Shown in pieces: positions 1,700 to 63,825 of a DNA stretch of 64,000 bases. Numbering within the stretch: the stretch's first letter is position 1; every line of letters begins with the position of its first letter. The stretch is from Ehretia macrophylla. Taxonomy: Eukaryota > Streptophyta > Magnoliopsida > Boraginales > Ehretiaceae. Location of the stretch: the NCBI GenBank assembly GCA_037974665.1, contig CM075770.1:96282850-96346849 (forward strand), given 5' to 3'. Below the pieces are notes generated by a model, which saw only the letters and a list, made by a program, of their open reading frames with translations, was not told where the DNA came from and did no database searches. The position numbers and the translations under genes were made by a program.

Positions 1700-2539
1700 A
1701 CCTTTATTTTTCTTGGCTAGGTACTTAGGGCAGTCTTGCTTCCAATGGCCTTTCTAACCACATTCAAAGAACTTCCTCTTAGGCTTCCCTGTACATTTCT
1801 TGTGTTTCTGCTGATGCTTTGGCCCATTATCAACCTGGCCATTCCCCTTTGTATTTCCTTGCTTCCCCTTATTCCAACACTTCTTCCTTTTCGGGTTTCG
1901 TCCAAAAGTGGATGCTTGGGCCATATGGTATTGACCTAAAAGCTTCATGACTGCCTTGGCTGCCTGAAGTTCCTTCATAAGCTCAGTGAGCCCTATGTCC
2001 ATCTTGCTCATATTGTAATTGAGCTTGAACTAGGCAAAGGATTCAGGTAGTGTCTCGAGAATCATATCGACCTTGCTTCCATTATCAATCTGGGCCCCCA
2101 AGGCTTCTGCAAGGTTAAGATTGTCCATCATCTTGAGAACATGTTCTTTGACGGATGTACCTTCTGCCATCTTGGCCGCCATAATTTTCTTCATAACAAC
2201 TTGTTTAGTAGGCCTATTCTTATCTGAGAACATCTCAGATAATGAGGTCATGATGTCTTTAGCAGTATCTTTTTTCTCATGTTGTACAAGCAGCAAGTCA
2301 AACATAAAGGCTAGCATATAGCACTTGGCCATGCTATCTGCCCTCTGCCACTTATCATGAGCCTTTTTCTCAGCATCAGTAGAGTCATCCTTTAGTGTAG
2401 GACATGGCTCAGTCAGAACATACTTGTACCCATTAGTTGTGAGTACTATGTCCAACTTCCTCTTCCAATTATTAAAATTCAGACTAGTCAACTTGTCATT
2501 AGTCAGAATGGTCGACAAGGGATTGAAAGAACCAGTCAT
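1700..2539 (-). pseudogene. gag: copia gag (UBN2-type) with zinc-knuckle region, fossil
   Basis: Starts at the minus-strand ATG at 2539. The N-terminal part reads MTGSFNPLSTILTNDKL and is followed by an NFNNWKRKL block, AKCYMLAFM, a region ending VKEHVLKMM, and ILETLPESF. This order is typical of the copia gag (DUF4219/UBN2) that packages element RNA. A Lys/Gly-rich stretch and an FECG zinc-knuckle half lie at about 1740-1900. It precedes protease-like sequence (WIVES, about 1630-1665) in the order expected for copia. The copy is broken. Confidence 0.85.
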
Positions 2540-3490
2540 TTTAATCTGGATATACAATATAATTAGGAATGACAATTTATGTATGACAAGCATATGTGAA
2601 CAATATGCATGAAAATATGACATTAGGAATTCATGAATGCATATGCACAAACATAGATGACCCTTTAAACTATGACTAGTGCCCTTAGTGATTACTCCAC
2701 CACTAATCAATTTGGCTTCTCAAGACTCGATAGCACTTACTCCGAAGGGAGGTTACTGCTTAACTTGAGTCGAGTGTAAGCACCATTCCTTATGGGACTT
2801 TCCTAGATAACTTAGACTAGAGCCTCCAAAGGGAGGTTACCCCAATCCTTATTATTTATAAGATGTCATATAGCTTAGAACTCCATCGAAGGATGACCGC
2901 TCAACTAACATCTTGAATGTGAATTCTCAATTTGAGATTATATTGCTAAATCCAAACAATGCCACCCTCTAAAGGGAAGTTAATGACACTATCCTTTAGC
3001 ATAATCCAGATATGGAAAGCCGTGAGATTTCCTAGTTCCCTCTCCCACTCGATTAATTAAAATAAGGGTTTCTAATTATATGATTTTTGCTTAATACTTA
3101 ATTTTTGGTTTTTTCAAAATTTCTAGATTAAAGTCCATAACCAATTTTGTCTGAAAAAACCTCAAGTATACTTCAAATCACATAGTCCTAATCTGGGTTG
3201 TCATCTTTACCCTAGGATTGGCTTTCATGGCTCTTTTAGTCAAGTATATGTTTCTAAGCAAAAATAATAGCCATATAGTTTTTCCTTAACCAATTTCTAA
3301 TTAATGTTTAGACTATAGTATTATTAGTCTAATTTCCAAGATTAATAATTACCTTGACCAAAAGCTCTAACAATTACAACAATAGAAATGCTTGTAATTC
3401 ATTCACATATATATTATTTAATGTCAGTACAATTTATAATTATGTACAAAACATAATTTACTACAAATTATTTCTCTAGTATTTTAGACA

Positions 3491-14188: not shown

Positions 14189-15232
14189 TCATTGGTTTGC
14201 TTCCTCGAGCATCTCCCACTCTTTAACTTTCAGCTTTGCTAAACTCGCCTTTCGACTCAAGGCATCCGCTACAACATTCTCCTTTCCTGGCACATAATTG
14301 ATCGTGCAGTTATAGTCATTCAGGAGTTCCATCCACCTCTTTTGTTGCATATTCAACTCCTTCTGAGAAAACAAATATCTCAGGCTCTTATGATCAGTAA
14401 ACACCTCAAATTGACTCTCCCACAAGTAATGCCTCCATTTTTTCAATGCAAAAACAATGGTTGCCAGCTCCAAATCATGTGTAGGATAATTCACCTCATA
14501 AGGTTTCATCTTTCGTGATGCATAAGCAATGACTTGATTATTTTGCTTTAAAACACATCCTAACCCTTCATTCGAGCCATCACTGTAGATAACGAACCCT
14601 AGTTTCCCTCGGGTAATACTAATATAGGGGCAGTTATCAACCTCTTATTCAATTCCTGGAAATTGTTTTCACACTTGTCATCCCATACGAAACTGATCTT
14701 CTTTTGTGTGAGCTTTATAAGTGGTCCTGCGATCTTTGAGAAATCTTTCACAAATCTCCTGTAATATTCTGCCAAGCCAAGAAAACAATGCACCTCTGTG
14801 ACATTCTCCGGCTTCTTCCATGTTTGCACCATATCAATCTTCAAAGGATCTATCGCAATTCCTTCCTCAGAAATCACATGTCCCAAGAATGCCACATGTT
14901 TGAGCCAGAACTCATATTTACTAAACTTAGCATATAGTTGATGCTCTCTCTATTTCTGCAACACCAAGTGTAAATGCCTTTCGTGCTCCTCCTCAGTCTT
15001 TGAGTACACCAAGATATCGTCTATAAAGATGATCACGAACAGGTCCAAATAAGGCTAAAATACCCTGTGCATCAAGTCTATAAAAGCGGCAGGAGCATTC
15101 GTTAGCCCAAACAACATTACAATGAACTCATAATGTCCTTATCTCGTTCTGAAGGCTGACTTAAGCACAACTTCCTGTTTAATGCAGAGTTGGTAGTATC
15201 CTTGTCTCAAGTCAAATTTAGAATATACTTTG
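14189..15232 (-). pseudogene. RT C-terminal part and RNase H of chromovirus A, fossil
   Basis: Minus-strand frames give the RT finger block [12 protein letters not shown] (next to 15232), the FLGHVIS...IDPLKI block (about 14895-14830) and [21 protein letters not shown] sequence. The RNase H block follows with [38 protein letters not shown] and [10 protein letters not shown] is separated from its upstream part by chromovirus B. Broken. Confidence 0.92.
15228..15232. repeat. target-site duplication (left) of chromovirus B
   Basis: ctttg precedes TGTAAGAACCC and is repeated exactly at 25821-25825 after GGGGTTGTTACA. Confidence 0.95.
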
Positions 15233-20279: not shown

Positions 20280-21520
20280 ATCTCTAGAGTTCCCTACAGA
20301 ATGGCTCCAGCAGAGTTGAAAGAATTGAAGGTATAGTTACAGGATTTAGTGGAGAAGGGTTTCATTCGACCCAGTTCTTCACCGTGGGGAGCGCTAGTGT
20401 TGTTTGTTAAGAAGAAAGATGGTTCCTTGAGGCTATGTATTGACTACCGGGGTTTGAATCAGGTAACAATCAAGAACAAATATCTTTTGCCATTGGTTGA
20501 TGAATTGTTTAACCAGTTACAAGGATCAAAGGTGTTCTCTAAATTTGATCTAAGGCAAGGCTATTATCAGCTTTAGATTAAGAAGGAGGATATACCAAAA
20601 AGTGCTTTTCGAACTCGGTATGGGCACTATGAGTTTATCGTGATGCCTTTTGGATTAACCAACGCACCCACAGCCTTTATGGATATGATGCATCGAATAT
20701 TCCGTTCTTACTTGGATCAATTCATGTTAATATTCATAGACGATATACTAGCATATTCCAAGACTGAGAAAGAACACGAGCAACACCTGCATCTAGTATT
20801 ACAAAAGCTTCGGGAACATCAGCTATATGCCAAATTTAATAAGTGTGAGTTCTAGCTCCAACAGGTATCATTTCTGGGACACATAATATCCCAAAATGGA
20901 CTAGAGGTAGACCCAGCAAAGATTAAAGTAATATCATCCTGGAAGAAGCCGGGAAATATCACTAAAGTGCGAAGTTTTCTAGGATTGGCAGGATATTATC
21001 GACGCTTTGTCAAGGATTTTTCAAAAATAGTCGGACCACTTACAAGAATTACATAGAACATGATGGCATTTGAATGGAATAACAAGTGCGAAGGTAGCTT
21101 CTAGGAATTGAAAAACAGATTGACTACCGTACCTATTTTAGCATTACCATAAGGGGATCAGAATTACATTATTTATAGTGATGCCTCGAAGAAGGGGTTG
21201 GGCTGCGTATTAATGCAGAATAACCAGGTAATTGCCTATGCTTCACAGAAATTGAAACCTTATGAGGTCAATTACCCTACCCATGACCTAGAGTTAGCCG
21301 CTATTGTATTTGCCTTGAAAAAATGGAGGCACTATCTGTGGGGAAGTAGATTTGAAGTATTCACAGATCATAAAAGCTTGAAGTATCTCTTCTCTCAGAA
21401 AGACCTTAATATGAGGCAGCGAAAATGGATAGAGCTATTAAATGATTATGATTGCTCCATTAACTACGTACCAAGAAAAACGAACATTGTAGCAGATGCT
21501 CTGAGTCGGAAGACAAGTTT
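20280..21520 (+). pseudogene. reverse transcriptase and RNase H of chromovirus B, fossil
   Basis: RT blocks in order: [72 protein letters not shown], the catalytic-site strand [11 protein letters not shown], and [16 protein letters not shown]. RNase H follows with [40 protein letters not shown] and ADALSRK. Broken. Confidence 0.94.
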
Positions 21521-21722
21521 GGTGATTCCTAAAACTGAGATGTTAAATGGAATTTGGAGTGCTTATCTGCAAATACAGTATAATTTGCTAATACAGCTGC
21601 GGGAGGTGCAAAAATAAGATCCCCGGTTTCAAAAGGTAAAAGAAGGGAGTGTTGACCGTAAACTACATCAAAAGGAGTTATGGAAGTACAGAAATCGGGT
21701 TTGTGTACCAAATAACTCAGAA

Positions 21723-28543: not shown

Positions 28544-29233
28544 TTATGTACCGGGTAACACTTCAATCACAAACTCAATCTCTCTTTCGGGTGGCAATCC
28601 CGGCAACTCCTCCAGGAATACATCAGCATACTCTTTAACCACTGGCACTTTAGCTAGCTTGGTTTGATCTGCTGGCTTGTTGATTAGGTAAGCTAAATAG
28701 CCACTACAACCCTTCCTCATCATCTTCACTACCTTGATCGAGGATACCACGGCCATTTTCGATAGGTCACATATTCCCTTTACCCTAATCACTGGTTGTC
28801 CCGATATCCGGAACTTCACAACTTTCGTACGACAATCCAATTGTGCATAATACTTTGCCAACCAATTTATTCCTAAGATGACATCATAATCTTGGAATGG
28901 TAACACCACAAGATCAGCTACAAATTCTCGGTCCTTTATTTGAATCTTGCAAGCCTTAAAACCAAACTTGGAAACATACTAAGTACCAATGGGAGTGCTA
29001 ACTTTTACATGACATGGCAAGGGTACAATTTGCAACTTAATGCGATGCACACATTGGGGAGAAATAAATGAATGTGTGGCTACAGAATCTATAAGTACCT
29101 TAACCATTTGATTTAGAACTAGGAAGATACCTTCAACAACAGTAGTAGCCTCAGGAAGCTCATCTTGATCAATAGCATAAACCCGGGCCTGAACCCTCTG
29201 AGTCGGGACATTGCCTCCGGCCTGTGTTTGCAC
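28544..29233 (-). pseudogene. protease and protease-RT linker of chromovirus A, fossil
   Basis: Minus frames contain the protease block VKVLIDSVATHSFISPQCV, DYDVILGINWLAKYYAQLDC, and the linker VVKEYADVFLEELPGLPPER that precedes RT in plant chromoviruses. Solo LTR C begins just after the linker. Broken. Confidence 0.9.
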
Positions 29234-56962: not shown

Positions 56963-56985
56963 GGGGGGGGGGGGGGGGGGGGGGG
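56963..56985 (+). repeat. uninterrupted run of 23 G
   Basis: Lies in a longer G-rich stretch (56951-56999) about 0.95 kb upstream of the MADS ATG. Such a run can form a G-quadruplex, and its exact length is prone to sequencing error. Confidence 0.9.
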
Positions 56986-57926: not shown

Positions 57927-60900
57927 ATGGGTCGAAAGATTGATATGAAAAAGATTGAGGACATAACAAAATGTCAAGTCACCTTTTCAAAGCGACGTAG
58001 TAGTTTGATGAAGAAGGCTCATGAAATCTCTGTTTGCTGCGAGGTGGATGTCGCATTTGTGGCATTCTCACCCTCTGGTCGTGTGAGCAAATTTTGTAGC
58101 CAGAAAAGGTATTTTAAACCTGTAAATAACTTATTATTAAGTCTTAGTGGGAAAAAAAAGAACTTATTATTAAGTTATTACCTCAATCTAAAAGTTTAAA
58201 ATTATTAGAGAGGAGTTTATGATATTTATTTAATGTCTAAATATTTGGTTACTTTATTTAATTTTGTTCTGCACAGATTTTTCTGATTCAATTCCTTATA
58301 TTAATTTTAATGTTTTAAGGATTGAAGATGTGCTTTTTCGTTATGTTAATCTACCAGCTGACAGGAGGTTGAAGTAAGGAAAATCTATGAATATTGATGT
58401 TTGCATCTTAAATTAAATCAGCCCTTTCTATTTCCTTGATGATCCTTTTCATTTTCTCAACTTTTACTAATTTTGGCGCCTACATTGTGTGGGATGCTTT
58501 GGACGGCTACCATGATTGACTGTGAAATAGTCATATAAAAGATGTTCAGGTAATTTAGTCATGTTTTCATAAGCATAATTTATATATATATATATATAAA
58601 TATTTAGTGAGATGTAAATGACTAAACTTGGTAAAATGCATATATATCATGTGCATAAAGGAAAAACTCGAGAAGTTACGACAACTTGACCATATCAAGG
58701 GTGATGCGAGCAAATTACAATTTCTGGAGAAACAGTTAAGTTCGTCTCTGTGTGTGTGTGTGTGTATACATACATATACATATAATATAGATATATATAT
58801 GTATGTATATGTTTTGTGTGTGTGTGTGTATATATATATATATTATATTAATTATTCATGTAAATTTTATTTGTGTTATTCTAGAATTTTTAATCTTTTT
58901 TTATTTATTTATGTTTTGTTGTGTTGTAATCTAGGTTTAGTCAATCCATTATAGTTAAAGCTCTGTTTTCATTTTTCTCTTTAAATTGCTAATTGCAAAA
59001 AATGTTTGACATTTATTTTCCTACTATTTTAAAGAACATCATGAGATGCCCATAGTTATATTTTTAAAAAAATAATAATAATTCAAAGCATATTCCAGAA
59101 TGATTAATCGGTGACAAATAAGATGGTGAGATTATATGTGACTATGGTGCTATTTTTTCTATTTTTATTATTGTAGTAGTGTCACTTTAAAATAAAACTA
59201 GCATGACTACTTAATGGACAGTGTTATATCATCATGTTGTGAAAGTGATAAATGAATTGAAAAGGTATTGGCCTTTTAAACACTTTCAAAACCCTACTTT
59301 CATAATAAGTATTGCTAGTAAGGTGATTTTTTTTTTTTTGGTAAATCAGATAAGGTGATTTGATTCACATAATTTAAGTGCACCATGAATACAGGTCATA
59401 CATGTAGTACATAGTGAATCATGGTTTTGTGATACCACAAACGACAAATTCTCCTTTCTCGTAGAGATTTTTTTGCAGTTTTTATCTCTAGCAAAAAATG
59501 ATATTTCTAGATTTAGGACGAAAGGAGAGAAAAGTAAATCAAGTTTTTACGATGTTAATAGGAATAGAAATCAAATTATGGATTAGAAAGAGAAATGTAT
59601 AGAAATTAATTATATATGTAATAATGAAATAATAAATTACAAAATGTACTTAAACATTTGAATCTTATTTTAGTCTGCCACCTTAAACACTTGTTAAGCA
59701 ATATTTTATGACTCAGCTTCTCCTGGTACATAGATATTGCGATTTTCATATTCAAAGGAATTGTAAGGAAGGAAAAAAAAAAAAAAAAGGCTTCTCACGA
59801 AACTTCCTACTAAAAATTTTATTTCCTTACCACAAGTAGGGAATCAATAGGGCAAACAAGGCGAAAACATGGATAACCTTATTGTGTGTTGAATCAATTA
59901 TCACTTTCATAGTACTAGCATCGAATTCAGCAGTGACTACAAAATTTTAGCTCTTTTGCAATACTCCAATTGATAAATAAAAAAATTGTCGCAATACGTG
60001 TCTTAGGGTAGCTTTTTTTAACTAGTGTGTAAACTACAACGTTTTGCAACTTTTATTTAATTGCAACAATAAATTGTTTTAGCACTTGTTTTTAGTAATT
60101 ACTCATGAGATTACTTTTCTGCAATAATTTAAAATTATAGTTTAATTTCAATGATTTTAATTTTATTTATAAAATATCCTTTTAGTAAGGAATTTGCAAT
60201 GGGACCATATGCAACAATTAAAGTCATTTATAATAATTTTTAGCCTCTTTGCAACAATTTTAAATATTGCAATGGATAAAAAATGAGGTAGTGTGATTCA
60301 CTATAGCTATTATTAAGTTCAATGGTGTCCCCTATATACTTCGAGAAACACAGATGTCTAGAAAGTCCGTCAATATTTAGGTAGTAAAATTATGCTTTAA
60401 TATGTCAAACCTGTGAAAAGGCCTGCATAATCTATTTTCTTTTTATTTTTTGCCAGAAAAAACCTACATAATCTGTTAATATATGGGGTTTTGAGTAGTA
60501 AGGTTCATCACCAGCTTTTAAAAGTTTAATAATTCACTTTTACAATAATAATTTTTGAATTATGAGACAATTTACCACATTATGAGGGATGGGGAAGTGA
60601 AAGAAATTAAGTTGTCTTTCTTTTTTGTTTCATCTTTAAGAGAAATAGAAAAAGAGATTTGCCTTTGACTGAAGATATACATGGTTGTTGGATATGTCAT
60701 AGGGAAATTTTCCAAGTGTAATAGGAAATAGAGAATGCAAAATGAGTTGATCTCTTTCACAGCTGATAAAAAAAAAAAAAAAATCTGATTGTATAGAGAT
60801 TTTATTGTTCTATTGATATCCCAACATATCTAGATGCCAATTAAATTCTCATCATCTAATATAAACTAATAACTTTTATTGCTAATTATTATTGCATATC

Positions 60901-63825
60901 TGCATTAGATTACCTTTCAATAGTGCAATGCCTTTTTGTAATAGTTTTGGCAAGTGGTCTCAATCGTTTCCGTTTGTGTTAAAGATTGTGCATCCAATCC
61001 AATTTGATATAAGATTATTTTATTTACAATACACTTCTTTGTTATTTGTTATCACAAAAAAAAAAAAAAAAAATGAAACACATGAACATGCTTAATTCAA
61101 AATAGGAGGTCAAATTGATAGGATTCAAAAGTACATCATGCCATAAAGTAACTGAAATTGATTAAGAGCTGGCATGAGAAGTTATTATGTGTTGGAATAG
61201 ATGTAAATCTGTTTTAGAAAGTACACTTAGCTTTGATAATATAACATTAGATGGTTATAACTTATGGTTGGTCGCCTCAAAATTTTGTCACACCAAAATG
61301 GAAATTCAAAATATAGTTAGCTCTTTTGTAATACTTTATTTAAAATGAAAAATAAAAACATTACAATAGGTGTTCTATTGCAATAGTTTTTTTTAACTAT
61401 TGTAAAAATGAAAACTTTTTGCAACTTTTTAATTTTTCTCAACAATTTTAAAATTAGAGTTTAATTTGTAACCATTTTTTTAACCGATGATTATTATATA
61501 TAAAAAAAAAACTATTGCAGTACAAAAAAACTGTTGAATTCATTTACAACAACCTTATTTTTTATCATTTTGCAAAAAATGTGTTGCAATAAACAAAAAC
61601 ATAGTTTATTGACACTCCCATTAATCTTAGATACTACTTTTTGAATTACTATTATGTATTTTTTGAGGAAAAAAAGGTGAAACACAAATCTCACAAACAT
61701 CAACAATCTATATAAAATGTTTTTAAATAATTCAATATTGAATTTCAATGAAATCTTGGATGATTTTTGATGAATTTTCTCATAATGACCTAGTTTCTTA
61801 TAATTTTGAAAATTAATTTCTAACTAAAAAGAAGTTTCTTGATGATGGATTGTCGCTTTCACTATTCAAATGGGATGATCTACTGATTCCAGAATCGAGG
61901 TAACCATTAACTTAGAAACTCCTAAGGTTTATATTCCTTTTGCATTCCAGTAAAAATAGACACCAATTTCCTTTAATTGTGTCTTACTACAGAATCTTGA
62001 ACTACAAATTAAGAAGAGCACACTTCAACAACAAATTTTGGAAGCTGATCTACGGTAATTTTATTAGCTTAGAAGTTCATATCAGTATGCATTAGTGATT
62101 CTGTCATTAAATTATTGTCATCTAATTGGTATGCATTATCCTATCTAGTCTTATGTCGTTTTTCTAAAGAAGTGATGATTCATAAAACAACTCACATATG
62201 ATGAGAAAAAGGTATATACAAATATAGTATCACCACATGGTGAACTAAAGATTAAAGAGAAGAATTTTTACCAAATAAAAATATTAGAAGAATAATGAGT
62301 TATTAATAAATATGTGTAGCCTCAAGACCTAATAGTTTAAGCTTTTGGGTCAATAGTTGAGTTTCTACACATATGTGTTAAGGTCCATTTATTCTCTGAT
62401 TCTCGGGGCTCACCATAACAAATTGGTATCAGAGCTGATGATTTGACGATCTTGGCCCGGACTCTCGAATAATTATGATAAACTATCATGATGGACTCTC
62501 GGTGGAGCTTGGTAGCAGGGTTCGGAGGATGGAGTAGGGTCACGATAAGTATAATTCTTGGGCTATACTCTCAAAGTTGTATGAGGTTACAGTAACGCGA
62601 TAGAGCAAGGCTTGGTTGATCTAGGTGATTCTAAGCGGACTCGTATGAGAGTAAGATCACGGAGCCTCATGGTTGATTTAGGGTGCACAAGGAAAAGCTA
62701 CTGGAGTTGACATGGTACTAGTTAAGGTCCATGGTTGATTTGGGGTGTACAAAGAGGTGCATGGTTGATCTAGGGTGCACGTGAAAGAGCTAATGGAACC
62801 GGCATAGTATAGTAGCTAAGGTGCAAAAAAGAAGATCTAAATACCTTGTGAGAGTCATAAAGTTAGATTCATCGGCGATGAATGTGGATCAAGGGGAAGT
62901 TAAGGCCCAATTGGAGTTCACATGTAAAAAGGAGCAGATTTGTTAGAAGTTTCACATGATGAACTAAAGAATAAAGAGAATAATTTATCCCACATGAAAA
63001 TATTAGGAGAATATTGACCTATTAATAAACATGTGTAGGATCAAGATCCAATAATTTAAGGTTTTGGGTCAATAATTAAGTTCTACACATATGTATTAAG
63101 ACCAATTTATTTTCAAATTCTTTGAGCTCGCCATAACATATATATATAATTGGACTTTAATCACATAGGTGGAAAGAGTTAAATCTGAGATTTTTTAGTC
63201 TCATGTCTCTCAACTCGACCTTGGCCACTGACTAAAGCCTCATTGCCATGTTTTTCTTTTTCTTTTTTGGTTTATAGGGATTATGAGCCAGGCCCAGAAC
63301 AAGAGCCTTCGCTACATCAACTTTCGTGGTGCGAGAGAAACCTCGAGTCATCTTTACAGAAAGTCATGGCTAGAAAGGTTACTTCTTTTTTTTTCTAAAT
63401 TATATAGTTTAATATATTTATTGAATAATAGAAAGTATTACACATTTTTTTTTTTTCGTTTTATTGATGGCATTGTTCTTAACTTGAATTACATTATTGT
63501 TCTGCCAGAATTCGTTAGGCAGTACTTCAGCTCAATGGCCACCTAATTCCCAGGTAAAATATATAAATGTAGAAAACGAATTCATCCTTTCTTTTCTATC
63601 CTCAAAGAAAAAGTAAAATATTAAACTGATATAATTGCAATTTTACATCATTATGATGGGATGACTATAATCCTACGATCAGATAGATATTATGGACTTG
63701 GAGAACCAAGGAGGGGAGCCAATTTCATACAACTTTAATGTGAATGAACTGACTACTCCTACAGGATCAAGCCACTCAGCAGGGCAGCTTCTCATGCAAC
63801 TTGATCCCTGGATTAGTCCATACAG
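57927..63825 (+). CDS. MIKC*-type MADS-box transcription factor (AGL66/AGL104-like), 3' partial
   Basis: Nuclear DNA-binding regulator. Proposed coding exons: 57927-58108, 58320-58373, 58531-58549, 58661-58734, 61893-61899, 61993-62054, 63278-63377, 63509-63553, 63683-63825; all phases agree, giving 228 codons plus 2 nt before the window ends. The MADS domain begins MGRKIDMKKIEDITKCQVTF and includes SKRRSSLMKKAHEIS and the VAFSPSGRVSKF strand. RIEDVLFRYVNLPADRR follows, as in AGL66/AGL104. A coiled coil NLELQIKKSTLQQQILEADL leads gap-free into RDYEPGPEQEPS, matching the LRRYEPDPIRF landmark of the MIKC* S clade, then CERNLESSLQKVMARK and a Gln/Ser/Pro-rich tail. Start 57927 is chosen because MGR is the family start; an upstream in-frame ATG (57888) lies before a splice acceptor. 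The MADS domain is unusually diverged (VCCEVDVAFVAF). Arabidopsis relatives act in pollen as heterodimers. The 19-nt and 7-nt exons are the least certain parts. Confidence 0.8.
58748..58845. repeat. (TG)n/(TA)n compound microsatellite in a MADS-gene intron
   Basis: Two TG blocks and two TA blocks just downstream of exon 58661-58734. A frame across them is low-complexity and not coding. Confidence 0.93.
59940..60300. repeat. MITE-like AT-rich repeat in the large MADS intron, copy 1
   Basis: Begins AAAATTTTAGCTCTTTTGCA and holds repeated TTGCAACT/TTGCAATA words. A related sequence lies at 61310-61615. No transposase, and termini unclear. Confidence 0.45.
61310..61615. repeat. MITE-like AT-rich repeat in the large MADS intron, copy 2
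   Basis: ATAGTTAGCTCTTTTGTAAT opens the match to copy 1. TTTTTGCAACTTTTTAATTT and AAAATTAGAGTTTAATTTG continue it. The two copies are diverged and are in the same orientation. Confidence 0.45.
62221..63137 (+). mobile_element. TRIM-type miniature LTR retrotransposon in a MADS-gene intron
   Basis: Direct terminal repeats of about 200 bp (about 62221-62419 and 62941-63137) share CACATG(G/A)TGAACTAAAGA, TAATAAA(T/C)ATGTGTAG and CTACACATATGT(G/A)TTAAG. The first is followed at once by TTGGTATCAGAGCTGATG (62421-62438), a tRNA-Met primer-binding site. The second begins TGTTAGAAGTTTCACAT. The roughly 500-bp interior is non-coding and repeats CATGGTTGAT(T/C)T(A/G)GGGTG three times (62668-62780). Size, layout and lack of coding match TRIMs. 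Clear target duplications were not found. Confidence 0.75.

Follow-up and report, generated by a model that had tools for sequence, protein, structure and literature searches.

Introduction

MIKC* MADS-box factors are said to direct pollen maturation (PMC2258202), the Arabidopsis members form an S clade (AGL66, AGL67, and AGL104) and a P clade (AGL30, AGL65, and AGL94) (PMC4729134), and the I region of MIKC* genes is encoded by four or five exons instead of one (PMC5915566). We use the term micro-exon for plant exons shorter than 51 nt, the smallest class being those of 15 nt or less. A survey of micro-exons in MADS-box genes took only genes with both SRF-TF and K-box Pfam hits, placed 92.3% of the micro-exons in the K-box, and mentioned in one sentence two micro-exons in the MIKC N terminus (PMC7714060); these two may correspond to the I-region pair formed by exons 3 and 5 that is described below. 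A splicing study states that nearly all MIKC-type micro-exons code for part of the K domain (PMC10808074). No word starting with MADS or AGL occurs in the main text of a paper on 45 clusters of plant micro-exons (PMC8831610) and no word starting with MADS in a micro-exon database note (PMC12409088), and among the titles and abstract openings listed by literature searches, in which the asterisk is not searchable, we saw none on I-region micro-exons of MIKC* genes.

The gene analyzed here lies in a stretch of 64,000 nt from Ehretia macrophylla (C7:96282850-96346849), henceforth the window. It resembles Arabidopsis MIKC* genes in its MADS domain and in its multi-exon I region (PMC5915566), but it is more diverged, its MADS domain is one codon short, and it has a 3.16-kb intron 4. 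Classical MIKC(C) floral MADS genes have K-box micro-exons, and like these the small exons of the window gene encode coiled-coil (dimer/tetramer) parts; the floral micro-exons lie in the K domain (PMC7714060; PMC10808074), those of the window gene in the I region upstream of it. We consider it about two-thirds probable that the locus is a MIKC*-type gene that has the small-exon I-region layout of its sister genes, is selected at the protein level, and carries a 19-nt exon 3 and a predicted 7-nt exon 5. The gene belongs to a known group and is ordinary within it apart from one extreme small exon, the predicted exon 5.

A Diverged MIKC*-Type MADS-Box Gene

The preliminary description of this DNA had given the span of the gene as 57927-63825; the start and coordinates are right, and the gene extends beyond 63825 and ends near 64678 (extended window coordinates), with a predicted stop codon 678 bases past the window end. 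The model comprises 11 predicted coding exons and 322 codons that join in a frame without a stop, C-terminal exons included (table 1). Its MADS domain scores 71.6 bits with the Pfam SRF-TF model (cut-off 26) and matches the MADS domains of SEPALLATA3 and MEF2 among solved structures (best E 4.8e-12). Several exons encode the I region, as they do in five sister genes; they lie between the MADS exon and those of the coiled-coil, and of them exons 2 and 3 are firm and exons 4 and 5 less firm. The SRF-TF score, this multi-exon I region, and the phase pattern of the sisters bear out the earlier proposal of a diverged MIKC*-type MADS gene, which is probably a fast-changing yet intact gene of the pollen type. 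With the Pfam K-box model, the K region scores 13.5 bits in the window gene and 26.7 bits in the C11 sister, both lower than the cut-off of 30, so that such genes could escape a survey that selects on SRF-TF and K-box hits (PMC7714060).

Table 1. Exons and associated features of the window MADS-box gene
Feature	Position	Strand	Remarks
Exon 1	57927-58108	+	182 nt; start codon and MADS domain; 185 nt (one codon more) in five of five sisters
Exon 2	58320-58373	+	54 nt; spliced alignment with C20 and C5 sisters
Exon 3	58531-58549	+	19 nt, (N)HIKDVQ; spliced alignment with C20 and C5 queries
Exon 4	58661-58734	+	Start fairly well supported; 3' end as in the preliminary description
GT repeat	58750-58766	+	At the 3' end of exon 4; blurs the donor site
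Intron 4	58735-61892	+	About 3.16 kb; 94-145 nt in four measurable sisters
Predicted exon 5	61893-61899	+	7 nt, AATCGAG, giving (Q)IE; position, phase, splice sites, hydrophobic-E end
Exon 6	61993-62054	+	62 nt, coiled-coil exon; 62 nt in five of five sisters
Exon 7	63278-63377	+	100 nt, YEP exon; sister comparison
Exon 8	63509-63553	+	45 nt; 51 nt in C11 sister
Exon 9	63683-63825	+	C-terminal region; open frame between splice sites
Predicted exon 10	64277-64469 (extended window coordinates)	+	Open joined frame
Predicted exon 11	64589-64678 (extended window coordinates)	+	Open joined frame

Sister Genes Share a Phase Pattern

The genome assembly that we searched (1.58 Gb in 20 contigs) contains at least five MIKC*-type sisters, at C11:9.76 Mb, C16:38.07 Mb, C20:41.05 Mb, C5:14.42 Mb, and C7:9.22 Mb (the last termed C7P), and there may be further MIKC* genes. 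Candidates were drawn from the best 20 of 137 genome MADS matches, which were checked for the MIKC* exon 2, and C7P came from another search. Three loci (L025 at C16:75.68 Mb, L026, and L040) were left out of the sister set, L025 being rejected as a MIKC* sister on a model that looked like a classical MIKC gene. Sister models were made with a purpose-written spliced protein-to-genome aligner and partly by eye. Two groups of MADS-box matches elsewhere in the genome are clustered: a stretch of about 0.54 Mb (C4:55466898-56009105) holds 14 on a single strand, which form a local MADS array, and one of about 95 kb (C18:15237073-15332374) holds four that are probably recent tandem copies, three of them scoring equally.

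The exon lengths modulo 3 common to the five sisters are 2, 0, 1, 2, 1, 2, and 1 for exons 1-7, exon 5 of the C5 gene being unplaced. The window gene fits this pattern independently in exons 1-3, 6, and 7, which are homologous to those of the sisters, whereas its exons 4 and 5 entered the comparison as modeled in the preliminary description and fit by construction. Four of the five sisters have an exon 2 of 54 nt and one has 60 nt; for exon 7 the lengths are 100 nt (four sisters) and 97 nt (one sister). Exon 3 measures 16 nt in C11, 28 nt in C16, and 19 nt in each of C20, C5, and C7P, and exon 4, in the same order, 62, 29, 56, 62, and 65 nt, ending always in phase 2. For C16, the length of exon 4 depends on the query, 59 nt with C11 and 29 nt with C20, and we used the latter; for C5, the aligner offered 29 or 44 nt, with GC donors, and the 62 nt was set by eye. 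All these lengths are 2 modulo 3. Exon 5 is 28 nt in C11, 28 nt in C16, 37 nt in C20, and 16 nt in C7P, each 1 modulo 3, and ends in LE, MQ, VE, and IE, respectively.

The window gene shares 45-47% amino-acid identity over 130 residues with C11, C16, and C20, and its exon 1 is 64% identical to that of C11. It is like the five sisters in phase pattern, in a small exon 3 (16-28 nt among them), and in a 62-nt exon 6, but differs in exon 5, which is 16-37 nt in four sisters and a predicted 7 nt in the window gene. Small exons at both places are usual in the sisters, and their presentation as a peculiarity of this gene was overstated. MIKC* gene models depend on two exons that are short enough for annotation programs to miss, and it is plausible that automatic annotation would miss both in the window gene; the comparison within one genome yields a simple phase rule for finding them.

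Downstream of the I region, the exons at 61993 and 63278 join in frame, as had been claimed from the letters. The latter encodes the YEP landmark, which we take to be common to the window gene and the AGL104 protein. An exon 6 extended upstream to start at 61960 would be in frame with a 93-nt exon 4 but breaks the 62-nt length of all five sisters and was rejected. For exons 8-11 the model is a prediction. When peptides were searched against the genome, exons 6-8 gave six hits (three to the window gene, one to the C16 sister, and two weak), and both hits of the exon 9-10 peptide were the window gene itself; no close orthologue was seen in the same genome by these searches.

The 19-nt Exon 3

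Exon 3 reads TCATATAAAAGATGTTCAG at 58531-58549 and is flanked by AG and GTAATT. Exactly this interval was chosen unprompted in both runs of the spliced alignment with the C20 query and in all five with the C5 query, whereas the C11 query did not choose it and put the end of exon 2 at 58367. It ranks at the top of the four phase-compatible candidates in its gap, with a splice score of 3.3 against -5.8 for the next; its acceptor is weak (-3.0 bits), and its donor (6.2 bits) is among the top 0.2% of all GT dinucleotides in the window. Earlier it had been put forward as a real exon that mends the phase between exons 2 and 4, and both points hold: omitting it leads to an early stop, and a small exon of equal place and phase is present in all five modeled sisters. 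We therefore regard the predicted 19-nt exon 3 as established by homology, and such an exon is an ordinary feature of the MIKC* family.

Exon 4 and the Long Intron 4

The first 20 codons of exon 4 include six that are identical to those of the C5 sister, a score reached by 141 of 20000 shuffles; the likeness to C7P is weaker (988 of 20000 shuffles as good) and that to C11 is no better than chance (3693 of 20000). Leucines are kept at positions 3, 6, and 9, and the 111 nt between exons 3 and 4 compare with 99, 114, and 169 nt in three sisters and 603 and 714 nt in two. On the distance from exon 3, the leucines, and the likeness to C5, we favored the exon at 58661 over exons 4 and 5 at 60457 and 61960, as obtained with the C11 query, and over exons at 59479, 59717, 61122, and 61916, as obtained with the C20 query.

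The 3' end of exon 4 is uncertain: 58734 is used in the model, and 58749, 58753, and 58700 are possible. All phase-2 donors are poor, with -4.3 bits at 58735, -7.9 at 58744, -3.3 at 58750, -3.4 at 58756, and -5.9 at 58762, the last three lying within the GT repeat, and there is no GT at the place that would make exon 4 62 nt long. The three sister donors that were scored have -2.4 (C5), -0.04 (C11), and 5.8 bits (C20). In no aligner run was 58735 taken as the donor; runs that included the exon at 58661 used the donor at 58701 (1.2 bits), whose phase is wrong for a 7-nt exon 5, together with one or more mini-exons. The exon 4 donor, which the preliminary description did not mention, is thus the weak point of the model with a 7-nt exon.

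Two diverged direct copies of one repeat, which may be a small mobile element, lie in intron 4 at about 59947-60148 and 61317-61467. When 58735-59950 was searched against the genome, 91 non-self matches were listed, all within positions 10-194 of the query (40 of 168 candidates scored); the matches of these first 1.2 kb are repeat stretches only, and the view of intron 4 as a single inserted element was rejected.

A Candidate 7-nt Exon 5

The letters around the candidate are as first reported: ATTCCAG at 61886-61892, AATCGAG, and then GTAACC. The last in-frame stop is a TGA at 61876-61878, and the single AG between it and the exon is at 61891-61892, which agrees with the claim of a sole acceptor. 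The acceptor scores 1.8 (top 4.6% in the window) and the donor 3.6 (top 1.8%), and by its own splice-site score the exon ranks second among 286 phase-compatible middle exons; the splice-site weights are plant frequencies. Intron 5 would measure 93 nt, and in the four sisters whose exon 5 is placed it measures 90-164 nt. A rule that looks 60-250 nt upstream of exon 6 and takes the best-scoring small exon of fitting phase selects 61893-61899 in the window and recovers the aligner-defined exon 5 in all four sisters that have one, these placements not being fully independent since the aligner shares the splice scores of the rule. The 7 nt fall outside the 16-37 nt range of those four. In AGL104, exon 5 is presumably 28 nt, judging from the protein, compared with a predicted 7 nt here.

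Of 3003 control places on both strands of the window, 55 have, at 60-250 nt upstream, a small exon of fitting phase that scores as well or better; with E or Q as the last codon and a length of at most 40 nt the number falls to 15, and with an end of V, I, L, or M followed by E or Q to 0 of 3003, a figure that is somewhat flattering in that the distance range was set with the sisters in view and the end motif with both the sisters and the candidate in view. Inside intron 4, none of 228 control places was as good. A four-row profile, one row of which is AGL104, used 61893-61899 in six of nine settings (every one of the six at an intron cost of 8 or 4, but none of the three at 14); the six runs also inserted mini-exons into intron 4, which at low intron cost included plainly spurious ones of 0-5 nt, and we treat them as supporting evidence only. 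The 7-nt exon was picked in none of three runs with the full C11 and C20 queries and in all five with the C5 query, a result that is partly circular because that query carries its own inferred IE.

In the C5 gene (locus L039, C5:14418500-14427500), the rule gives no good exon 5 within 60-250 nt upstream of exon 6. Farther upstream lies a 7-nt candidate, TATAGAG, that would encode (T)IE. Its donor is excellent (6.4), its acceptor is poor (-4.7), and a 55-nt rival scores better; should the candidate prove genuine, this genome would hold a second exon 5 of 7 nt. Within the locus it occupies 1684-1690, and the 62-nt exon 4 occupies 1426-1487 and is followed by simple repeats.

Of the original proposal of a 7-nt exon, what stands is that it is the best candidate for a small exon 5 upstream of exon 6; that it is really spliced we regard as well supported but unproven. 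It would represent an extreme form of the small exon found in the sisters. On this model, the window gene would encode a MIKC*-type MADS-box transcription factor, selected at the protein level through most of its history, though evolving faster than its sisters, whose I region would be spread across small exons in the layout common to MIKC* genes here. Of these, exon 3 is the usual small exon, and exon 5 would have shrunk to, or retained, 7 nt that contribute (Gln-)Ile-Glu where the I region meets the coiled-coil. By analogy with the family, the protein would most likely act as a DNA-binding partner in MIKC* dimers in the male gametophyte. Should the 7-nt form be real, exon 5 might by its length tune the spacer before the coiled-coil of these dimer-forming proteins. 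A wider view, which we put forward only tentatively, is that exons 3 and 5 are an ancient micro-exon pair of the MIKC* I region, in which exon 5 may vary from 7 to 37 nt with its phase and its hydrophobic-Glu/Gln end held; the 7-nt form would then be common to the window gene and C5, and surveys selected on the K-box score, which MIKC* genes can fail, would undercount the pair.

Protein Constraint and Phylogeny

Codon positions were counted in exons 1, 2, 6, and 7 of four genes. Where three sisters agree, changes confined to the window gene occur at 18 of 66 sites in codon position 1, 14 of 91 in position 2, and 16 of 26 in position 3, and the sisters have the same shape with lower rates at positions 1 and 2. 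This bias indicates protein constraint: the protein of the window gene has been constrained through most of its history, more loosely than its sisters. In a tree with AGL104 as its only reference, the window gene sits on a long terminal branch and in no supported branch, so that membership in the S clade, with genes of the AGL66/AGL104 type, is no more than possible.

Alternative Structures of the Locus

The strongest competing structure, although an unlikely one, is that exon 5 has been lost, with splicing either from a donor in the GT repeat at 58754, which makes a 93-nt exon 4 of phase 0, to 61993 or directly from exon 3 to exon 6. Both joins leave the frame open, the 93 nt equal the total of exons 4 and 5 in the C20 sister, the donor of exon 3 is excellent (6.2) and the acceptor of exon 6 good (2.9), and the three profile runs at intron cost 14 reach 61993 without an exon 5. 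The donors of the GT repeat, however, score -3.4, about average for a GT in the window, and exon 4 is present in all five sisters and a placed exon 5 in four; a loss would also not account for the presence, at the exon 5 place, of a small exon that has the correct phase, good splice sites, and a final IE. The same acceptor could instead open a longer exon 5 of 34 nt (61893-61926) that runs to the next donor. It has the right phase, an open frame, and a length within the range of the sisters, but its donor is weaker (1.0 vs. 3.6), intron 5 would be 66 nt where the sisters have 90-164 nt, and it ends in Lys where the four placed sisters end in Glu or Gln, which makes it the least probable of the structures considered.

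Early decay would account for the locus differently: the exon 4 donor and exon 5 acceptor would be gone, intron 4 would have become more than 20-fold longer, a TGA would lie in the usual exon 5, and no normal mRNA would be made. There is indeed no GT at the 62-nt exon 4 position and no AG at the 28-nt exon 5 position, a TGA falls within those 28 nt, the exon 4 donor is poor, and the terminal branch in the tree is long. The model of 322 codons is nevertheless free of stops, C-terminal exons included, and this open frame together with the codon-position constraint argues against a long-dead pseudogene, although a recent loss would not alter the constraint signal. We consider decay improbable, somewhat less so than the 34-nt exon, and prefer the intact gene with a predicted 7-nt exon 5.

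Other Features of the Window

Fragments of LTR retrotransposons lie at 2033-2719 (-), 14192-14644 (-), 21153-21614 (+), and 28547-28978 (-); two of the six open reading frames scanned had no hit, and the Pfam domains found in the fragments are RT RNase H (in two of them), a gag of the copia type, and a protease of the retroviral type. The 23 bases at 56963-56985, some 940 upstream of the start codon of the MADS-box gene, are all G.
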